Positions 25,136 through 33,373 of a stretch of DNA of 37,208 nt are shown here, in pieces. The position numbers were made by a program, and so were the translations under genes. How positions within the stretch are numbered: position 1 is the stretch's first letter; each line of letters opens with the position of its first letter. The stretch is from a virus: the IMG/VR virus record IMGVR_UViG_3300047462_000372, positions 1-37,208 of that record; one strand, written 5' to 3'. The notes under the pieces are model-generated. The model saw only the letters and a program-made list of their open reading frames with translations. It was not told the DNA's origin and made no database searches.

Positions 25136-26500
25136 TCAATGCCCGTGCGCCGCTTTCCATGCGGCGTATTCAGAGGGGCGCAAACCGTAGCGCGCCAGCA
25201 CCCCCTCGTGCAGCCGCCTAAGTTCTTCGACGATCAGTGCCTGCACGTCGGGCTGCTCTTGCTCTGGAACACGCTCGGCCACGGAGCGCCGAATGTTGGA
25301 GAGCGGATCAAGTTCCGGATGCGTGACGACCGCACGAATGGTCTGTTTGATGAAATCACGCCAAGCCAAGCGAAGAGGGTCCGGTTCCGCCAAGTCTTGC
25401 TTGATGGCCAGATATTCCTGCGTCGAGCGTTCGTAGGCCCAAACGTAAAGGTCGCGCAGCAACTCCACTCTGGTCATTTCGTACACGCCGAGCGTGGCGC
25501 GGCTGTAGGCCTGCTCCGGTATATCCAGAAAGGTCAGCGGACACAAATTGGCGCGGAACAGCGGCAGATTTGCGGCCAATCGGGAGGTGCGTTTATTGAT
25601 GTCGGCAAAGGGTTGTAGGTAGGGCAAATGCACCATCATGAAAAAGGACTGTTCGAAAGGGTCACGAATCTGGTTGGCCTTGTTGAGTAGTGCATTCAGC
25701 GCGTCTTCGATTTGCTGTGGCGTGGACAGTGGACGGTAGACGCTTTTTCCGATATCGACGGCGTGCTGACGAATTCGCCCCTCATCTGCAGGATTGGGCA
25801 GCAAGTTTTCCGCCAGGGCACTGTGCAGGTTCATCAATGTGTAGCGGTTGAACTCGGCACTATCAATGCCTTCGACCAGCAGTTCTATCGCCGTTTTATG
25901 GTTCAGAATCATTTGTGTTTCGACGGCAGCCTTGCCGCGCGCGGCCTTGCCGTGCTCGATGAGTTCGCGCGTATCGAGCCGCGAGTAGGTGTTGCCTTCC
26001 AGGTGGCTCGATGCCCATGACAAATCGATCAGCAGCCGGTTCAGAATGGCGCGGCTGTATGTGCCGGCAGGCTCATCAACGTCAGCGGTTCTGCCCATCT
26101 TGTGCAATTGTCGGCGCAACGCCTCCGACAAATACCAGGTTTCGTTGGGGCGGTAGGCATCCAGAAAATCACGTTGGTAGCCGACAGGTTTGCGTTCTTC
26201 CGGCAGCTGGTCGATATAGGCAAGGATGTCCTGACTGTCGGCAGACAAGGGTATAAAGTGGGGAAAGCGATCGGCTCTGGCGGCCAGTGTGTCGGGGCCA
26301 GTTTGGGTGCCGGCTCCAAAAAAATAGCGGCGGGCTCTGCCTTCACCCAGTGCTGTGACTTGGCCGATCTCAATCAGCTTTGCGATCAGGCGCTGTGCCG
26401 TTCGCCTGGCGATGTCAGGGTGTTGAGTCAGGAGTTCAGCCAGGGTCAATCCGTTCCCGGATGCCTGAATGCTGTTCAGTAAGTCTGTAGTGGATGACAT
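25136..26500 (-). CDS. Fic-family protein with N-terminal winged helix and altered Fic motif
   Basis: The start is placed at 26500 (MSSTTDLLNS), because the upstream extension to 26758 runs through the operator repeats and has no protein character. The 454-residue product has an HTH/winged-helix-like N-terminus (LTLAELLTQHPDIARRTAQRL, residues 18-38). It carries an inhibitory-helix motif SSHLEGN (164-170, S-xxx-E-G) and a Fic core at 296-307, QPFADINKRTSR. The canonical core is HPFxDGNxR, so the catalytic His is Gln296 and the Gly is Ile301. Fic enzymes normally transfer AMP to proteins; this variant may be inactive, changed in chemistry, or mainly a regulator. The C-terminus is helical. It stands alone with a palindrome-rich promoter region. 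Confidence 0.85.
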   Translation of the reverse strand: MSSTTDLLNSIQASGNGLTLAELLTQHPDIARRTAQRLIAKLIEIGQVTALGEGRARRYFFGAGTQTGPDTLAARADRFPHFIPLSADSQDILAYIDQLPEERKPVGYQRDFLDAYRPNETWYLSEALRRQLHKMGRTADVDEPAGTYSRAILNRLLIDLSWASSHLEGNTYSRLDTRELIEHGKAARGKAAVETQMILNHKTAIELLVEGIDSAEFNRYTLMNLHSALAENLLPNPADEGRIRQHAVDIGKSVYRPLSTPQQIEDALNALLNKANQIRDPFEQSFFMMVHLPYLQPFADINKRTSRLAANLPLFRANLCPLTFLDIPEQAYSRATLGVYEMTRVELLRDLYVWAYERSTQEYLAIKQDLAEPDPLRLAWRDFIKQTIRAVVTHPELDPLSNIRRSVAERVPEQEQPDVQALIVEELRRLHEGVLARYGLRPSEYAAWKAAHGH

Positions 26501-26536
26501 TGCAATGTTGGCGCTGTTTGAGATTTTCGTGGCACA

Positions 26537-26565
26537 ATTATGGCGCAGTTTATTGAACTGCGCCA
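26537..26565 (-). promoter_or_regulatory. Fic gene promoter -10 overlapped by a perfect palindromic operator
   Basis: A 10-bp perfect inverted repeat, TGGCGCAGTT (26541-26550) and AACTGCGCCA (26556-26565), overlaps a CATAAT -10-like element (26537-26542, minus strand) upstream of the Fic start. A repressor bound here would block transcription; the Fic protein's own N-terminal HTH is one candidate. Confidence 0.6.
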
Positions 26566-26579
26566 GTTTTGCCTTTAGA

Positions 26580-26610
26580 AGTGGCGCAGTTTTGCGTAAT
26601 CTGCGCCACT
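26580..26610. repeat. Second TGGCGCAG palindrome
   Basis: AGTGGCGCAG (26580-26589) and CTGCGCCACT (26601-26610) form a perfect 10-bp inverted repeat with an 11-base spacer. It repeats the half-site of the operator at 26541. A third, weaker pair (TGGCGC at 26676 with GCGCCA ending 26700) follows. Confidence 0.6.
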
Positions 26611-26675
26611 GGAAGTGAGATTGGAGGTTGTCGGTTCGCGACGGAAACCAAGAGCACGCCCAATTACACCCAATC

Positions 26676-26700
26676 TGGCGCGATTCGCAAAACTGCGCCA
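26676..26700. repeat. Third, degenerate TGGCGC palindrome
   Basis: TGGCGC (26676-26681) faces GCGCCA (26695-26700); the right half extends to AACTGCGCCA, identical to the right arm of the first operator. The array suggests cooperative binding by one regulator. Confidence 0.45.
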
Positions 26701-26728
26701 ACCGCCATGCGGTGGATATGGCATCTAA

Positions 26729-26783
26729 TCTCCGCGCAATTTGCGGAGAATACGGCACTTAATCTCCGCACAATATGCGGTGA
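26729..26783. repeat. Two tandem TCTCCGC-N7-GCGG palindromes
   Basis: TCTCCGC (26729-26735) with GCGGAGA (26743-26749) is perfect. The copy at 26763-26783 (TCTCCGC with GCGGTGA) has one mismatch. The start-to-start distance is 34 bases, about three helical turns. They lie on the side of the HTH gene at 26878 and form a second operator class distinct from the TGGCGCAG set. Confidence 0.55.
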
Positions 26784-26877
26784 ATGATGTCCGCAGCTCG
26801 AGCGCCCCTACAACTTGACTCGTGGGCGAAACAACGCGTTCATGGGCTCCTGCCAACCCATTTGCAAGGAGACCAAG

Positions 26878-27264
26878 ATGGAAGTCGCTCACGTCAACCA
26901 GAAACAACTCGCCGCCCGCTGGCGTGTCAGCGAGGCAACCCTCGAACGCTGGCGGAGCGAGGGGCTTGGGCCAAAATTTCTGAAGCTCTGCGGCCGGGTG
27001 CTTTACCGGCAAGTCGACATCGAAGCATACGAGGAGTCGTGCCTGATGACGTCAACCTCATCAGGCGTTGCGCGTGCCACACCCGCTGAACGTCCCCACA
27101 ATGCACTTCTGCAACCTCTCGATCGGAATTGGCGTCAGCGCGTCAGATCGTTAATCAATGGCGTTGAAGAAAATCAGGGCGCAATATCCGGCGAACAAAC
27201 AGCAACTGATCTTGCCGGGACCAAGTCGGAACCAAGTGCGACTCCTGCACCAATCCACGATTGA
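26878..27264 (+). CDS. Small HTH (excisionase/AlpA-like) DNA-binding protein
   Basis: The start at 26878 follows AAGGAGA with good spacing. The 128-residue product has an N-terminal MerR-like/HTH_17-type helix-turn-helix: QLAARWRVSEATLERWRSEG (about residues 9-28), then KFLKLCGRVLYRQVDIEAYE. This is the fold of excisionase-like and AlpA-type regulators. The C-terminal half is low complexity and probably unstructured. It is clearly related to the HTH protein at 32975 (shared W-VS-TL-RWRSEG-GP-LKL-RV-Y). It may control the divergent Fic gene through the palindromes between them, which is inference. Confidence 0.7.
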   Translation: MEVAHVNQKQLAARWRVSEATLERWRSEGLGPKFLKLCGRVLYRQVDIEAYEESCLMTSTSSGVARATPAERPHNALLQPLDRNWRQRVRSLINGVEENQGAISGEQTATDLAGTKSEPSATPAPIHD

Positions 27265-27306: not shown

Positions 27307-27915
27307 TTACCCCAAGCTTTCCAGATAGGGGCGCATCACGTTGGTTACACGGCAAACCTTGGCGTAGCGCCAGATGTCGTCACTGGTTATTCGCTTTCCG
27401 TGCCAGGCTTCGCGTAGCGCTTCCATGGCAACGTCGAGCCCAATTTTGTTGCGATATTTGAAGCAGTCGGCGACGGTTTTTGCGATGTTCGTTACGCGGA
27501 CAGTCACGCCATCCACAATGTGCTCCTCGACACCCTCGGTAAGAGCCACTCCGGAAAAACGTACGATCCGCAGTGCCGGGTAGTCAAGTTTCGGTGTGCT
27601 GGCCTTGTTATCGATAGCCAGCCACACCTGGAAAGGGGACTGGGTCGTCAGGTCGTGAAAACGCAGCGCAGTGAGCAGGCAGACGACGCCCTTCGGCACC
27701 CTGCGCGCCACTTCAGCCAGCGTTCCGTGAGCCGAAATGTCGCGATTCGGCAGTCCGTAGAGCCCGCGCCCGACGCGTTCGAGTTGCCCGCGCCGGACGG
27801 CACGGGACAGGTAAATCCGGGGAATTCCGTGCGGCGCCAGATCACGCGGGCGAATCAATCCTTGGGACCGAGCCAGGTCGATCAATTTCTCGGTTGAGTT
27901 GTCCATGTTGCGCAT
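27307..27915 (-). CDS. AbiEi-family antitoxin/regulator without an adjacent toxin
   Basis: A 202-residue protein with the AbiEi layout: an N-terminal winged HTH (RSQGLIRPRDLAPHGIPRIY, then LSRAVRRGQLERVGRGLYGLP) and a C-terminal domain (VVCLLTALRFHDLTTQSPF, ITNIAKTVADCFKYRNKIGLD with one change, ALREAW). Type IV antitoxins of this family repress their own promoter and normally precede an AbiEii nucleotidyltransferase toxin. Here the downstream gene is convergent and unrelated, so the toxin is missing from this locus. The start is 27915 or 27906 (MDNSTEK); the ribosome binding site is not clear. Long inverted repeats lie directly upstream. Family call is firm. Confidence 0.8.
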   Translation of the reverse strand: MRNMDNSTEKLIDLARSQGLIRPRDLAPHGIPRIYLSRAVRRGQLERVGRGLYGLPNRDISAHGTLAEVARRVPKGVVCLLTALRFHDLTTQSPFQVWLAIDNKASTPKLDYPALRIVRFSGVALTEGVEEHIVDGVTVRVTNIAKTVADCFKYRNKIGLDVAMEALREAWHGKRITSDDIWRYAKVCRVTNVMRPYLESLG

Positions 27916-27917
27916 GC

Positions 27918-27965
27918 TGTTCCAATATGTCGGTATTTGTCAATAATTACCGATATAACGGAACA
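27918..27965. promoter_or_regulatory. Long imperfect inverted repeat, probable AbiEi operator 1
   Basis: An 18-bp arm at 27918-27935 pairs with 27948-27965 at 15 of 18 positions (outer TGTTCC/GGAACA, inner TCGGTA/TACCGA) across a 12-base spacer. It abuts the start of the AbiEi-like gene, where autoregulatory operators of this family are expected. Confidence 0.6.
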
Positions 27966-27997
27966 ATGCGCCGGGATACGCGACGCCCGGTCAACAT

Positions 27998-28025
27998 GTC
28001 CGAAATTTGTACACAATTATCGGAC
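27998..28025. promoter_or_regulatory. Inverted repeat GTCCGA-N16-TCGGAC, probable AbiEi operator 2
   Basis: The 13-bp arms (27998-28010 and 28013-28025) match at 11 of 13 positions around a 2-base centre. The 28-base site agrees at 23 positions with the site at 32103-32130 near the other AbiEi-like gene. Confidence 0.6.
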
Positions 28026-28160
28026 GCATTCACCGACCGGGGTTTCTTCCGCAGTCATTCAGAATGTGGTTTATTTTAATATTGATTTGTGAAATAAATT
28101 TGAATTTTGCGTTTTTATGGCAAAATACGAATTTATTAAACGACTAAATGGATAAATACG

Positions 28161-29441
28161 ATGCTGCTAGATTTCCACGCACGTAACTTCCGTTCCCTGC
28201 GTGACGAGCAGGTTTTGAGCCTCGTTGCCGCCAAAGATAAAGCGCTGTCGGACAGCAACACCATGCTGTCGGGTATTAAAGCTGCGCCTGTCCTGCTGCG
28301 TAGCGCTGTGATCTATGGCCCCAACGCCGGTGGGAAATCCAACGTCATCAAGGCATTGCAGTATATGCGGGCCGTAGTGCTGGACTCTGCATCAGTAATG
28401 CAACCCGGTCAGACTTTCAGCGTGCAGCCGTTTCGCCTCGACGCCAATTCCGGTGATCAACCTACGGAATTTGAAGCCACATTCATCCTGGATGGCGTGC
28501 GATACCAATACGGGTTCACACTCACCGCGCAGCGGATAACCAGTGAGCACCTGCTCGTCTATAAAGCATTCAAGCCGCAGCAGTGGTTCGATCGCCAGTA
28601 CGATCCGGAAACCGGCAAAGACCACTATGAATTCGGCCCTGGCCTGAAAGGCCCGAAGAGCGTATGGGAGGGAGCTACCCGACCCAATGCGCTCTTCCTA
28701 TCAATGGCAGTCCAACTCAATAGCGAGCAATTGCGACCGATTTTCGATTGGTTCGTCAGCAAGTTAGCCATTTTCAACGACATCACGGCCTTGAACCCTC
28801 AATTTTCTGTGGATATGTTGCGGCAGCCGGCCGGCAAGAAAGCCATCTGTAACTTCCTCTCCGGCGCCGATATCAGCATAGCTGACATCGATGTAATCAC
28901 GCGTAAAGCGGCCGGGCAATCCGTTCACTTTGATATCGCCGCCGGCAAGACTGAGGTACGAAACGAGGAACTGGATGTCAATGAGTTGCGGTTCCACCAT
29001 GTGACGGCCAAGGGCAAGGCGGTGTTCGATCTTGCCGATGAATCCATGGGGACCCAGCGTTTGCTTTTCCTCACTGGTCCCATACTCGATATCCTGGAGA
29101 AGGGTCTCGTCCTTGTTGTCGACGAACTGGACAACAGTTTGCATCCGCTATTGGTGAGGCGGTTGGTGGAGTTGTTTCACACGCCATCGCTAAATACCAA
29201 GGGCGCGCAGTTGATCTTTAGCACACACGACACGTCGTTGCTCGATCCAGATTTGTTCCGGCGTGATCAAGTCTGGTTTGTCGAGAAGGATCGTGATCAA
29301 GCGTCCAGGCTCTACCCGCTGTCGGACTTCAGTCCGCGCAAGAATGAAGCCATGGAACGCGGGTACCTGATCGGGCGCTATGGCGCGCTGCCGTTTTTCG
29401 ATAACTGGCCAGGAGAGGAGGCGACGGTTGGCGCGCGATAA
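28161..29441 (+). CDS. AbiLi/RloA-like AAA ATPase of a defence system
   Basis: A 426-residue ABC/SMC-type ATPase. It opens MLLDFHARNFRSLRDEQVLSL, then Walker A GPNAGGKS (53-60), an ABC-signature-like DESMGTQRLL (293-302), Walker B LVLVVDELDNSLHP (316-329) and a switch STHDTSLLDP (354-363). This order is that of the AAA_15/AAA_21 ATPases of RloA, AbiLi and related OLD-like defence proteins. The next gene overlaps by 14 bases and encodes a TOPRIM RloB-like protein, which makes the pair an AbiL/RloAB-type system. Such ATPases sense infection and control the nuclease-type partner. Upstream DNA is AT-rich. Confidence 0.85.
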   Translation: MLLDFHARNFRSLRDEQVLSLVAAKDKALSDSNTMLSGIKAAPVLLRSAVIYGPNAGGKSNVIKALQYMRAVVLDSASVMQPGQTFSVQPFRLDANSGDQPTEFEATFILDGVRYQYGFTLTAQRITSEHLLVYKAFKPQQWFDRQYDPETGKDHYEFGPGLKGPKSVWEGATRPNALFLSMAVQLNSEQLRPIFDWFVSKLAIFNDITALNPQFSVDMLRQPAGKKAICNFLSGADISIADIDVITRKAAGQSVHFDIAAGKTEVRNEELDVNELRFHHVTAKGKAVFDLADESMGTQRLLFLTGPILDILEKGLVLVVDELDNSLHPLLVRRLVELFHTPSLNTKGAQLIFSTHDTSLLDPDLFRRDQVWFVEKDRDQASRLYPLSDFSPRKNEAMERGYLIGRYGALPFFDNWPGEEATVGAR

Positions 29442-30102
29442 CTCCCCAAAAATCCGGCAACGTGCCCAACTCGAGCGCAAGATAAACCAGCGCGCAAGTT
29501 ACGATCGTATCTTGATCGTTTCTGAAGGGAGCAAGACCGAGCCGCTGTATTTCAAGGAAATACGGGCGGTGCATCGACTGCACACAGCCAACGTCGAAGT
29601 GCAGCCTGGCGAACTTGGTACCGAACCGATTCAGGTCGTGCAATACGCGCGCGATTTGTTCGAGCACGGCGACATTCACAAAGCCATTCGCCGGCGCGCG
29701 TTCGAGCAGGTCTACGCGGTATTTGACCGCGATGAGCATCGAACCTACTTTAATGCTCTCACGATGGCGTCGTCGTTAGATGGAAAATTGCGAAACGATG
29801 CCAAGCAGCCTGTGGTCTTCCGCGCCATCGCGTCGGTGCCCAGTTTCGAGTTGTGGCTCCTATTGCATTACGAGGACGTTCAGCACCCGTTGCACCGCGA
29901 TGAGGTGATGCGTCGCTTGAAGCAATACATTCCCGGTTACGACAAGGGTGCGGGAGGGAGTTTCGCCACAACCTCTGATCTGTGCACGATTGCTGACGTG
30001 CGAGCCCGGCGACTGGCCGCGCGTAGCAACGCCTTCAATGGCGCTGAACCCTATACCGATATCTTTACACTGGTGGCCTTGCTGCAATCCTTGGGCCGTT
30101 AG
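29428..30102 (+). CDS. RloB/AbiLii-like TOPRIM protein, partner of the ATPase
   Basis: The best start is TTG at 29428, eight bases after GGAGAGGAGG; an ATG at 29380 would need translation deep inside the ATPase gene. The 224-residue product shows the RloB plan: ILIVSEGSKTEPLYFKEI (28-45) with the TOPRIM Glu33, VYAVFDRDEH (95-104) with the acidic DxD pair Asp100/Asp102, and VPSFELWLLLHYEDV (137-151). TOPRIM domains with these residues are metal-dependent nucleases or nucleotidyl-transfer enzymes. The overlap with the ATPase gene implies coupled synthesis. Probably the effector of an abortive-infection system. Confidence 0.85.
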   Translation: MARDNSPKIRQRAQLERKINQRASYDRILIVSEGSKTEPLYFKEIRAVHRLHTANVEVQPGELGTEPIQVVQYARDLFEHGDIHKAIRRRAFEQVYAVFDRDEHRTYFNALTMASSLDGKLRNDAKQPVVFRAIASVPSFELWLLLHYEDVQHPLHRDEVMRRLKQYIPGYDKGAGGSFATTSDLCTIADVRARRLAARSNAFNGAEPYTDIFTLVALLQSLGR

Positions 30103-30170
30103 CCACTTGTCTGCCAGCGCGGATGCGCAACACCGAAAGTGCCGATTAGGTCTCGCTCGAGATATTGGCG

Positions 30171-31262
30171 TCACTGCTCGGTAGCTGCATCCGGCGGAGC
30201 CAACTGGCGCTTCCTGTGAAAATGCATCATCGGGAGACCAAGTAGTTCAGCGGCCTTGGATTCGGAGATGTATTGTCCGGCCAAAGCACGGAAAACCAGC
30301 TGTTCAAATAGCTGTGGATGCTCCTGGGAAACCGGATCGCCTGGTTCGGCTTTTCTCCAACCTTTCGCAGAAAAGCGTTTCCACATAACAAGATAATCGG
30401 CATCGGAAACCAAATCGCACTGTTTGGCGCGCTCGAGGCAGGCCGCCATACTCATGCCGAATTCGTGCTTGAGCCCGTAGAGCTCCGGCCACTCCACTTC
30501 ACGGCGATGTCGTCCGAGCAGTGAGGTGACCGCAACCTTGGGCACCAGAAAGGTGCCTGCGAAGCGATGACACGCATTTTCTTCATTTACGTTTGCAGCA
30601 AGACGTCCTGATAAGAGGAGATGGCCGAGCTCATGCGCCAACGTGAAGCGCTGTCGATCGCCGGGCCAGCGTGAGGAGACCGCGACGACGGGATATGAGC
30701 GGCCATCACCGGTGCGGGCGGTTGCGGTCAGACCAGAGAATCCGGGATTTTCTTCATCGACGACGATCACCAGCAGCCCCAGCCGTTCCAAGGTGCCGGT
30801 CAGGTTGGCGATCGGACTCATCCCCATCGTCCATACATCACGCGCCTGATTCGAGAACGCTTCGATCTCATCAAGTGCCTCGATATTCCGCGGCAGGCCG
30901 GCTGGTGGCACGAATGCAGGGATCGGCGACTCCGGGAAAAAACCTAACAACTCCACTCGCTTTTCGACCAGATCCAGTACCTTGATCTTGAGCGCCTCCT
31001 GCGCAGTCTTGCCAAAGGAAGCAAGTTTGTGAAACTCAGGATCCAGCAGCTCGACCTGATGCGTACGGAAAAAATATTCTACCCGGATACCGCACGCACG
31101 AGCCAGCTTGAGCAATTGGGAAGAGGACGGCGTCATCGCGCCCTTTTCGTATTTCTGGATGGCGGTATGGGTGACGCCAATCTGCTTTCCTAGTGCATCC
31201 AGAGTCAGGCCGGCAGCAAGCCGAGCCTGCCGAATGCGGTTTCCGATCATATTGGCCATCAT
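30171..31262 (-). CDS. XRE-family regulator fused to ImmA/IrrE metallopeptidase
   Basis: A 363-residue protein. Residues about 5-60 are a Cro/C1-type HTH (NRIRQARLAAGLTLDALGKQ, TAIQKYEKG). The middle contains the ImmA/IrrE (COG2856) zinc-peptidase motif HELGH (210-214) in RFTLAHELGHLLLSGR, with VNEENACHRFAGTFLVP following, where family members supply the third metal ligand. The C-terminus (SESKAAELLGLP) may hold another small helical domain. Such proteins cleave or antagonise a repressor and often regulate mobile elements or toxins. It converges on the AbiL-like pair. A perfect 12-bp inverted repeat sits just upstream of its start, probably its operator. Starts at 31262, 31259 or 31250 are all possible. 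Confidence 0.85.
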   Translation of the reverse strand: MMANMIGNRIRQARLAAGLTLDALGKQIGVTHTAIQKYEKGAMTPSSSQLLKLARACGIRVEYFFRTHQVELLDPEFHKLASFGKTAQEALKIKVLDLVEKRVELLGFFPESPIPAFVPPAGLPRNIEALDEIEAFSNQARDVWTMGMSPIANLTGTLERLGLLVIVVDEENPGFSGLTATARTGDGRSYPVVAVSSRWPGDRQRFTLAHELGHLLLSGRLAANVNEENACHRFAGTFLVPKVAVTSLLGRHRREVEWPELYGLKHEFGMSMAACLERAKQCDLVSDADYLVMWKRFSAKGWRKAEPGDPVSQEHPQLFEQLVFRALAGQYISESKAAELLGLPMMHFHRKRQLAPPDAATEQ

Positions 31263-32275: not shown

Positions 32276-32313
32276 ACCCGCCAGGGTGCGCATCGTTGAG
32301 AGGCGTGGCGGGT
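32276..32313. repeat. ACCCGCCA inverted repeat
   Basis: ACCCGCCA (32276-32283) and TGGCGGGT (32306-32313) are exact complements with a 22-base spacer. It could fold as an RNA hairpin; no strong T run follows, so terminator function is doubtful. Confidence 0.35.
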
Positions 32314-32863: not shown

Positions 32864-32974
32864 TGGTTTTTAGGGCGTTAAATCGAAGACGTGAGCAATT
32901 TCCGCTCCATCAACTTGCTTGATCGACCCGACGGAGAATCAATATATGGCTCCATCAACCAAAGGAGTTATATT

Positions 32975-33373
32975 ATGGAAAAAATTGTCCTGTCCGAAAG
33001 CGAATTGGCTAAACACTGGGGCGTGAGTCCCAAAACATTGCAGCGTTGGCGCAGCGAAGGCCGTGGCCCTCGTTACCTCAAATTATCCAAGAGGGTGGTG
33101 TACCCAATGGTGGAAATTCGAGCATTCGAGTCCAACGCGCTATACGCTTCAACGTCGGAAAGAGCAAGCGATGTCACGACACGATCCAGCGCAAGCCTAC
33201 TGACAGCAAAGGAAGCGGCTGCCGCGACTAGTCTTCCCGCTTACATGTTCAGCAGCAAACGGATTCGCGAGGCGGTAGGTCTGCCTTGTGTGCACATCAA
33301 CTCATCCGTGCGATTCAATCTGGAAGAAATCATGAACTGGGCTCGTCGCAATACTAATCAGCTGGACGAATAG
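32975..33373 (+). CDS. HTH DNA-binding protein, paralogue of the one at 26878
   Basis: The start at 32975 follows AAAGGAG with 7-base spacing. The 132-residue product has an HTH_17-like domain: ELAKHWGVSPKTLQRWRSEG (about 9-28), then GPRYLKLSKRVVYPMVEIRAFE. The second half contains a further helical segment (SLLTAKEAAAATSLPAYMF, RIREAVGLPCVHINSSVRFN, LEEIMNWARR) that looks like a second, swapped excisionase-like DNA-binding domain. So it may bind two half-sites. It lies between the recombinase relic and the PIN/ImmA operon. A regulator or recombination directionality factor is plausible; no target is known. Confidence 0.7.
   Translation: MEKIVLSESELAKHWGVSPKTLQRWRSEGRGPRYLKLSKRVVYPMVEIRAFESNALYASTSERASDVTTRSSASLLTAKEAAAATSLPAYMFSSKRIREAVGLPCVHINSSVRFNLEEIMNWARRNTNQLDE

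Follow-up and report, generated by a model that had tools for sequence, protein, structure and literature searches.

The region between a Fic gene and a helix-turn-helix gene in a 37.2-kb virus record holds several palindromes close together, and it raises the question of which proteins these sites serve. The window, by which we mean the whole stretch of 37,208 nucleotides that was analysed, has the Fic gene (fic1) on the left and an HTH_17 gene on the right of the palindrome region. To our knowledge, the target or the control has been worked out for few Fic proteins. We consider it probable that the region is a patchwork of operators in which every class would be dedicated to one self-regulating Fic family, the two palindrome classes being most likely docking sites for two such families. 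The features on which this view is built are the following; op1, op2 and op3 stand for the TGGCGCA class, the TCTCCGC class and a third class of sites, respectively.

25136..26500, minus strand: fic1, encoding a 454-aa Fic protein with an N-terminal winged helix (aa 1-65) and a FIC domain with the degenerate motif QPFADINKRTSR
26509..26515, minus strand: op1 half-site AGCGCCA near the fic1 start (about -15), kept in most homologues
26530..26536, minus strand: op1 half-site TGTGCCA, degenerate in the window; most homologues have TGCGCCA at -36/-35, 11 bp from the O1 half-site
26537..26542, minus strand: likely fic1 -10 box CATAAT, from the alignment of homologous promoters
26541..26565, no strand: op1 palindrome O1, TGGCGCAGTT-N5-AACTGCGCCA, with perfect 10-nt arms, overlapping the fic1 -10 box
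26582..26608, no strand: op1 palindrome O2, TGGCGCAGTTTTGCGTAATCTGCGCCA, with 20-bp half-site spacing; the R-108/F-88 pair is kept in homologues
26656..26672, minus strand: op3 site TGGGTGTAATTGGGCGT, matching the operator class of a third Fic family (Fic3)
26676..26700, no strand: op1 palindrome O3, TGGCGCGATTCGCAAAACTGCGCCA, imperfect; the order op3-op1-op2-HTH is found elsewhere
26708..26785, no strand: op2 array with half-sites at 26708 (degenerate), 26728, 26742, 26762 and 26776, spaced 20/14/20/14
26728-26751, no strand: TCTCCGC palindrome, perfect in the window
26762-26785, no strand: TCTCCGC palindrome with one arm base changed in the window
26878..27264, plus strand: HTH_17 gene of 128 aa, counted from an ATG preceded by AAGGAG; an alternative TTG start lies at 26815

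A first, sequence-only reading of this DNA had counted three TGGCGCA and two TCTCCGC palindromes. All five were located where it had placed them, and shuffle controls indicate that they did not arise by chance. The pattern TGGCGCAGTT-N5-AACTGCGCCA, with up to three mismatches allowed, matched the window at 26541 and 26676 only and gave no match in 100 shuffles, while ATCTCCGC-N6-TGCGGWGAAT gave two exact sites (shuffle mean 0.15, never four matches). The middle palindrome, O2, is weak on its own under a looser pattern (0.52 matches expected) and is supported by its conservation in relatives. The TCTCCGC array is composed of five half-sites, the first of them degenerate, and corresponds to an exact 34-bp repeat present roughly two and a half times. 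The two recognition classes proposed by that reading are both supported, and to them we add isolated TGGCGC-type half-sites, the degenerate TCTCCGC-class half-site at 26708 and the third class, TGGGTGTAATTGGGCGT at 26656-26672, which had been overlooked.

The op1 class was surveyed in 86 upstream regions, namely those of 85 Fic1 relatives and of the window. Loss of the sites upstream of homologous Fic genes had been named as the observation that would speak against their being operators; GCGCCA half-sites occur at set positions in 82 of the 86 regions and are absent only upstream of L050 and the divergent L084-L086. Across homologues, the stretch from about -65 to -41 is taken up by one palindrome and that from about -108 to -82 by another, with further half-sites near -36 and -15. 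Altogether 314 forward and 141 reverse half-sites were found in these regions, against 21 and 14 in the reversed-sequence control, and 77 pairs of half-sites are exactly 18 bp apart. Half-sites tend to be spaced by about 11, 21, 32, 42, 52 and 73 bp, with a mean resultant length of 0.83 at 10.5 bp, a value that is descriptive and carries no p-value since the loci share kinship. Judged by this phasing, the op1 half-sites sit on one face of the helix.

Palindrome O1 overlaps a conserved hexamer; among 37 aligned homologous promoters, 20 have CATAAT and 11 have CACAAT at this place. The assignment of the fic1 promoter rests on this conservation, because a scan of the region with the sigma-70 consensus gave no promoter match. 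The suggestion that the first palindrome lies over the likely Fic promoter is borne out in that O1 spans this -10 hexamer. As in autorepressing Fic regulators, fic1 therefore presents an inverted repeat over its own promoter that is kept along with the gene.

The op1 palindrome was present in 35 of 40 genomes, mostly as one copy and nearly always at fic1 only. In 79 fic1 neighbourhoods no protein family was common to more than six loci, so that Fic1 itself is the sole common candidate for binding op1. Moreover, divergent Fic1 proteins (31-49% identity) have other operators of similar plan, such as TTGCGCCTA in alphaproteobacteria and GCGACA/TGTCG in L084 and L441. From these associations we infer that the TGGCGCA class serves the neighbouring fic1 as an operator of its own, and in the simplest reading Fic1 would bind its own promoter.

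The protein is suited to such a role. Fic1 has a FIC domain (Pfam Fic, 4.7e-12), and its AF2 model, which is modest overall (mean pLDDT 64), shows the Fic fold at aa 73-372 (Z 16.8) and a winged helix at aa 1-65 (Z about 10; pLDDT about 80-89 there) whose matches include bacterial repressors. In the FIC motif, QPFADINKRTSR, Gln replaces the catalytic His in every homologue with a readable motif, that is, in all 83 such sequences among the 86 Fic1 proteins and in ten of twelve plasmid relatives; the motif could not be read by the search pattern in two full-length and one truncated reading and in the two other plasmid relatives. Fic1 thus lacks the catalytic His of HxFx(D/E)GNGRxxR that marks an AMPylating Fic enzyme, and it retains within itself an inhibitory motif of class II type, SxxxEGN. 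Given the winged helix and the Gln in place of the catalytic His, a role as a repressor is likelier than AMPylation, and with that His gone what remains for Fic1 is probably, in the main, a regulatory role through DNA binding. The view that the N-terminal domain of the Fic protein is the likely binder of the TGGCGCA sites gains support in this way. A two-gene toxin-antitoxin arrangement of the FicTA or Phd-Doc kind was not recognised: among families of at least 80 codons in the 79 neighbourhoods there was no separate antitoxin family beside fic1, a length limit that a very short antitoxin would escape.

The sequence, its conservation and covariation, and the positions and gene associations of the sites were established directly, and it is from these that binding, repression, oligomer state and deletion history are inferred. 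The winged-helix N-terminus of Fic1 would bind O1, O2 and the isolated half-sites; the protein probably does so as a dimer, or as a larger oligomer, that contacts half-sites along one face of the helix. The bound protein would cover the -10 box of fic1 and so repress its own gene. The three TGGCGCA palindromes had been taken as one set; O1 and O2 would belong with fic1, and O3 (26676-26700) may be part of the cluster on the HTH side.

The TCTCCGC class leads to another Fic family. In locus L005, op2-type sites are followed by a second fic gene (fic2), whose product has a DUF4172 domain and an intact HPFDDGNGR motif, and then by the same HTH gene as in the window. The upstream regions of 47 DUF4172-Fic genes (46 viral loci and L005) contain 80 reverse and 36 forward op2 half-sites, and the reversed control contains none. 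The window array has the pattern of the Fic2 operator, with TGCGGHGAW/WTCDCCGCA half-sites and the R-20-F and F-14-R spacing seen at Fic2 promoters. Among 47 whole genomes, exact op2 sites were found in 13, in nine of them beside fic2 (the match in G022 being only partial) and in six of those ending precisely at the fic2 start codon; the remaining four are the window-like L004, L455, and two genomes in which fic2 had no match. The divergent Fic2 genes of L363, L366 and L368-L370 show changed op2 arms. Going by these associations, the TCTCCGC array is most likely an operator of DUF4172-type Fic genes. No Fic2 gene was detected by tblastn in the window, where the HTH gene stands directly downstream of the array instead.

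At some fic2 genes the sites reach the coding sequence. In L443, L448 and L449 the last base of the operator is the A of the fic2 start codon ATG, and likewise in L005, where the last half-site is changed; this placement suggests a leaderless transcript at these four genes. A further op2 half-site lies within the first fic2 codons (CCGCATGAAATGCGGAGATT in L443).

The third class belongs to Fic3, a family with an intact HPFQDGNGR motif. Tandem sites of the TGGGTGTA type were recognised by eye upstream of the Fic3 genes of nearly all 19 viral loci (within the series L397-L416) and of L388, and L411-L413 have a changed form of the site. The window site TGGGTGTAATTGGGCGT at 26656-26672 matches this operator class, and so one site of the Fic3 class would stand between the op1 and op2 sets. 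Its position between cassettes had led us to consider op3 as the core of an integrase attachment site, an idea that was dropped as the same repeats are found upstream of Fic3 genes.

Further copies of the HTH gene were located in genomes by means of its conserved leader. The product of the gene matches Pfam HTH_17 (8.8e-7), with no other protein family recognised beyond a weak mad1/excisionase similarity. Two arrangements were found. In ten loci fic2 is directly followed by the HTH gene; in others the HTH gene lies behind a cluster of operators in the order HipB-type TTCCCGATCGGGAA, op3, op1 and op2, of which members are sometimes missing. The order op3-op1-op2-HTH is found in the window, L459, L461 and L466, and in L004 with a partial op1 site. 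At these operator-cluster loci fic1 is divergent in the window and L004, fic3 is divergent in L388 and L473, and a HipB-like gene lies beside L461. Ahead of the HTH leader in L459, L460, L461 and L466, sites of the TTCCCGATCGGGAA type recur at intervals of 49-50 bp.

The simplest course of events would be that an ancestral op2-fic2-HTH unit lost fic2 by deletion, so that op2 now fronts the HTH gene. This model is drawn from L005, which has op2-fic2-HTH, from the ten loci with fic2-HTH, and from ten further loci with op2-HTH and no fic2 between. We favour this loss of fic2, with its own operator left behind, at about even odds. The orphan array could be a leftover, or it could be a site at which Fic2 made elsewhere in the cell controls the HTH gene.

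The second possibility extends to a working hub, in which the HTH gene would be under the joint control of several Fic-family and HipB-type autorepressors acting in trans at op3, at O3 of op1 and at op2, and would thereby sense which modules the cell carries. The recurrent operator order, in some loci with the HipB-type sites in front, is what one would expect of it; op2 lies at -88/-89 of the conserved leader position in eight of the ten op2-HTH loci, and G183 carries both a hub-like HTH copy and a fic2-HTH locus. In addition, the mean pairwise difference across these ten loci is 0.11 for op2 half-sites versus 0.55-0.68 for spacers and flanks; the first two half-sites had been used for finding the loci, and the third, which had not, is about equally conserved. 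By this comparison the half-sites have been under constraint until recently, a result compatible both with a functioning site and with one lost not long ago. Against the hub, Fic2 is encoded in only four of the 14 genomes with an HTH-leader locus (ten have none, and many of the 14 may be incomplete) and many are without Fic1, a scarcity of Fic2 that fits remnants better. Only 13-30 codons of the HTH gene are left in several of these loci (L457, L460 and L461), and in L455 op2 is followed by a recognisable fic2 5' remnant, as when a gene is lost and its operator stays. We therefore hold the hub to be unlikely. The stronger proposal, that the HTH promoter is a composite hub for Fic and HipB autorepressors acting in trans and that Fic1 proteins are catalytically dead, pure transcription repressors, is distinctly doubtful. 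As a separate observation, in L457, L460 and L461 the HTH leader and the first 13-30 codons recur while the rest of the gene is replaced, like a recombination junction.

It had also been proposed that the HTH protein regulates its own gene by binding to the TCTCCGC array, with Fic1 on the TGGCGCA sites. The array does lie just upstream of the HTH gene, at the same place in ten loci. However, the same sites are found at Fic2 promoters in viral contigs without a close copy of the window HTH gene, the operator varies along with the Fic2 protein, and the HTH loci L015, L457 and L471 have no op2 array. Since sites and HTH gene occur apart, ownership by the HTH protein was rejected on gene associations, and its autoregulation through this array is very improbable. 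That the palindromes are RNA hairpins of a terminator or attenuator is scarcely credible, for although a terminator-like hairpin with a T-rich tail was scored at 26541-26565, the conserved place spans the -10 box of fic1 and so precedes the presumed start of the transcript, and isolated half-sites with no partner are kept in helical phase.

Other features of the window deserve mention. A cluster of defence-like genes lies at 27307-31262 and includes AbiEi, an AAA_21/AbiLi-AriA-like gene with RloB, and an HTH-ImmA (RmrA-like) protein. An abiF RNA (Rfam RF03085, 53 bits) was found at 32276-32312 on the minus strand, and no AbiF protein was recognised among the ORFs scanned nearby. A second HTH_17 gene at 32891-33373 is about 51% identical over 61 aa to the HTH gene at 26878.

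If each Fic family has a dedicated promoter operator, the regulation of Fic proteins becomes testable from sequence, and an orphan site could be traced through its operator class to the regulator that is missing. A widespread family of Fic proteins in which the catalytic His is invariably lost and the DNA-binding domain and operator are kept would be an enzyme fold turned transcription factor, and the orphan operators by the HTH gene would be a record of past turnover of mobile fic genes. Our literature searches, in a library that includes a minority of subscription journals and preprints, turned up no account of these operators. The degenerate-FIC variant and the composite operator cluster appear to be new; an autorepressing Fic protein has already been described.

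This protein is CccR of Yersinia pseudotuberculosis, shown experimentally to repress its own gene through inverted repeats near -35/-10, for which it must dimerise to bind (PMC9755527). CccR, whose catalytic His (H192) is intact, AMPylates FtsZ; it carries a C-terminal HTH and recognises the site AGATAATCAT-N26-ATGATAATCT (PMC9755527). Fic1 resembles it in combining a FIC domain and a DNA-binding domain in one protein and in having an inverted repeat over its own promoter, and differs from it in the N-terminal position of the winged helix, in the Gln for His and in short palindromes set in arrays. In Campylobacter fetus several Fic proteins act in concert, one of them with a degenerate FIC motif (PMC5651007). 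That degenerate protein, also named Fic2, retains the His needed for toxicity, whereas Fic1 of the window has Gln instead, and the network is one of toxin-antitoxin neutralisation and not of operators (PMC5651007). CbFic2 of Coxiella burnetii, which has DUF4172 and Fic domains, binds DNA; random DNA was used and a specific site was not identified (PMC10628234). CbFic2, like SoFic of the DUF4172-Fic-wHTH type, is a close known counterpart for the TCTCCGC class, as it has the domains of the Fic2 family to which this operator would belong. Unlike that study (PMC10628234), the present analysis points, from sequence, to a dedicated operator at the promoters of the Fic2 family, the gene itself being one that was not found in the window record.
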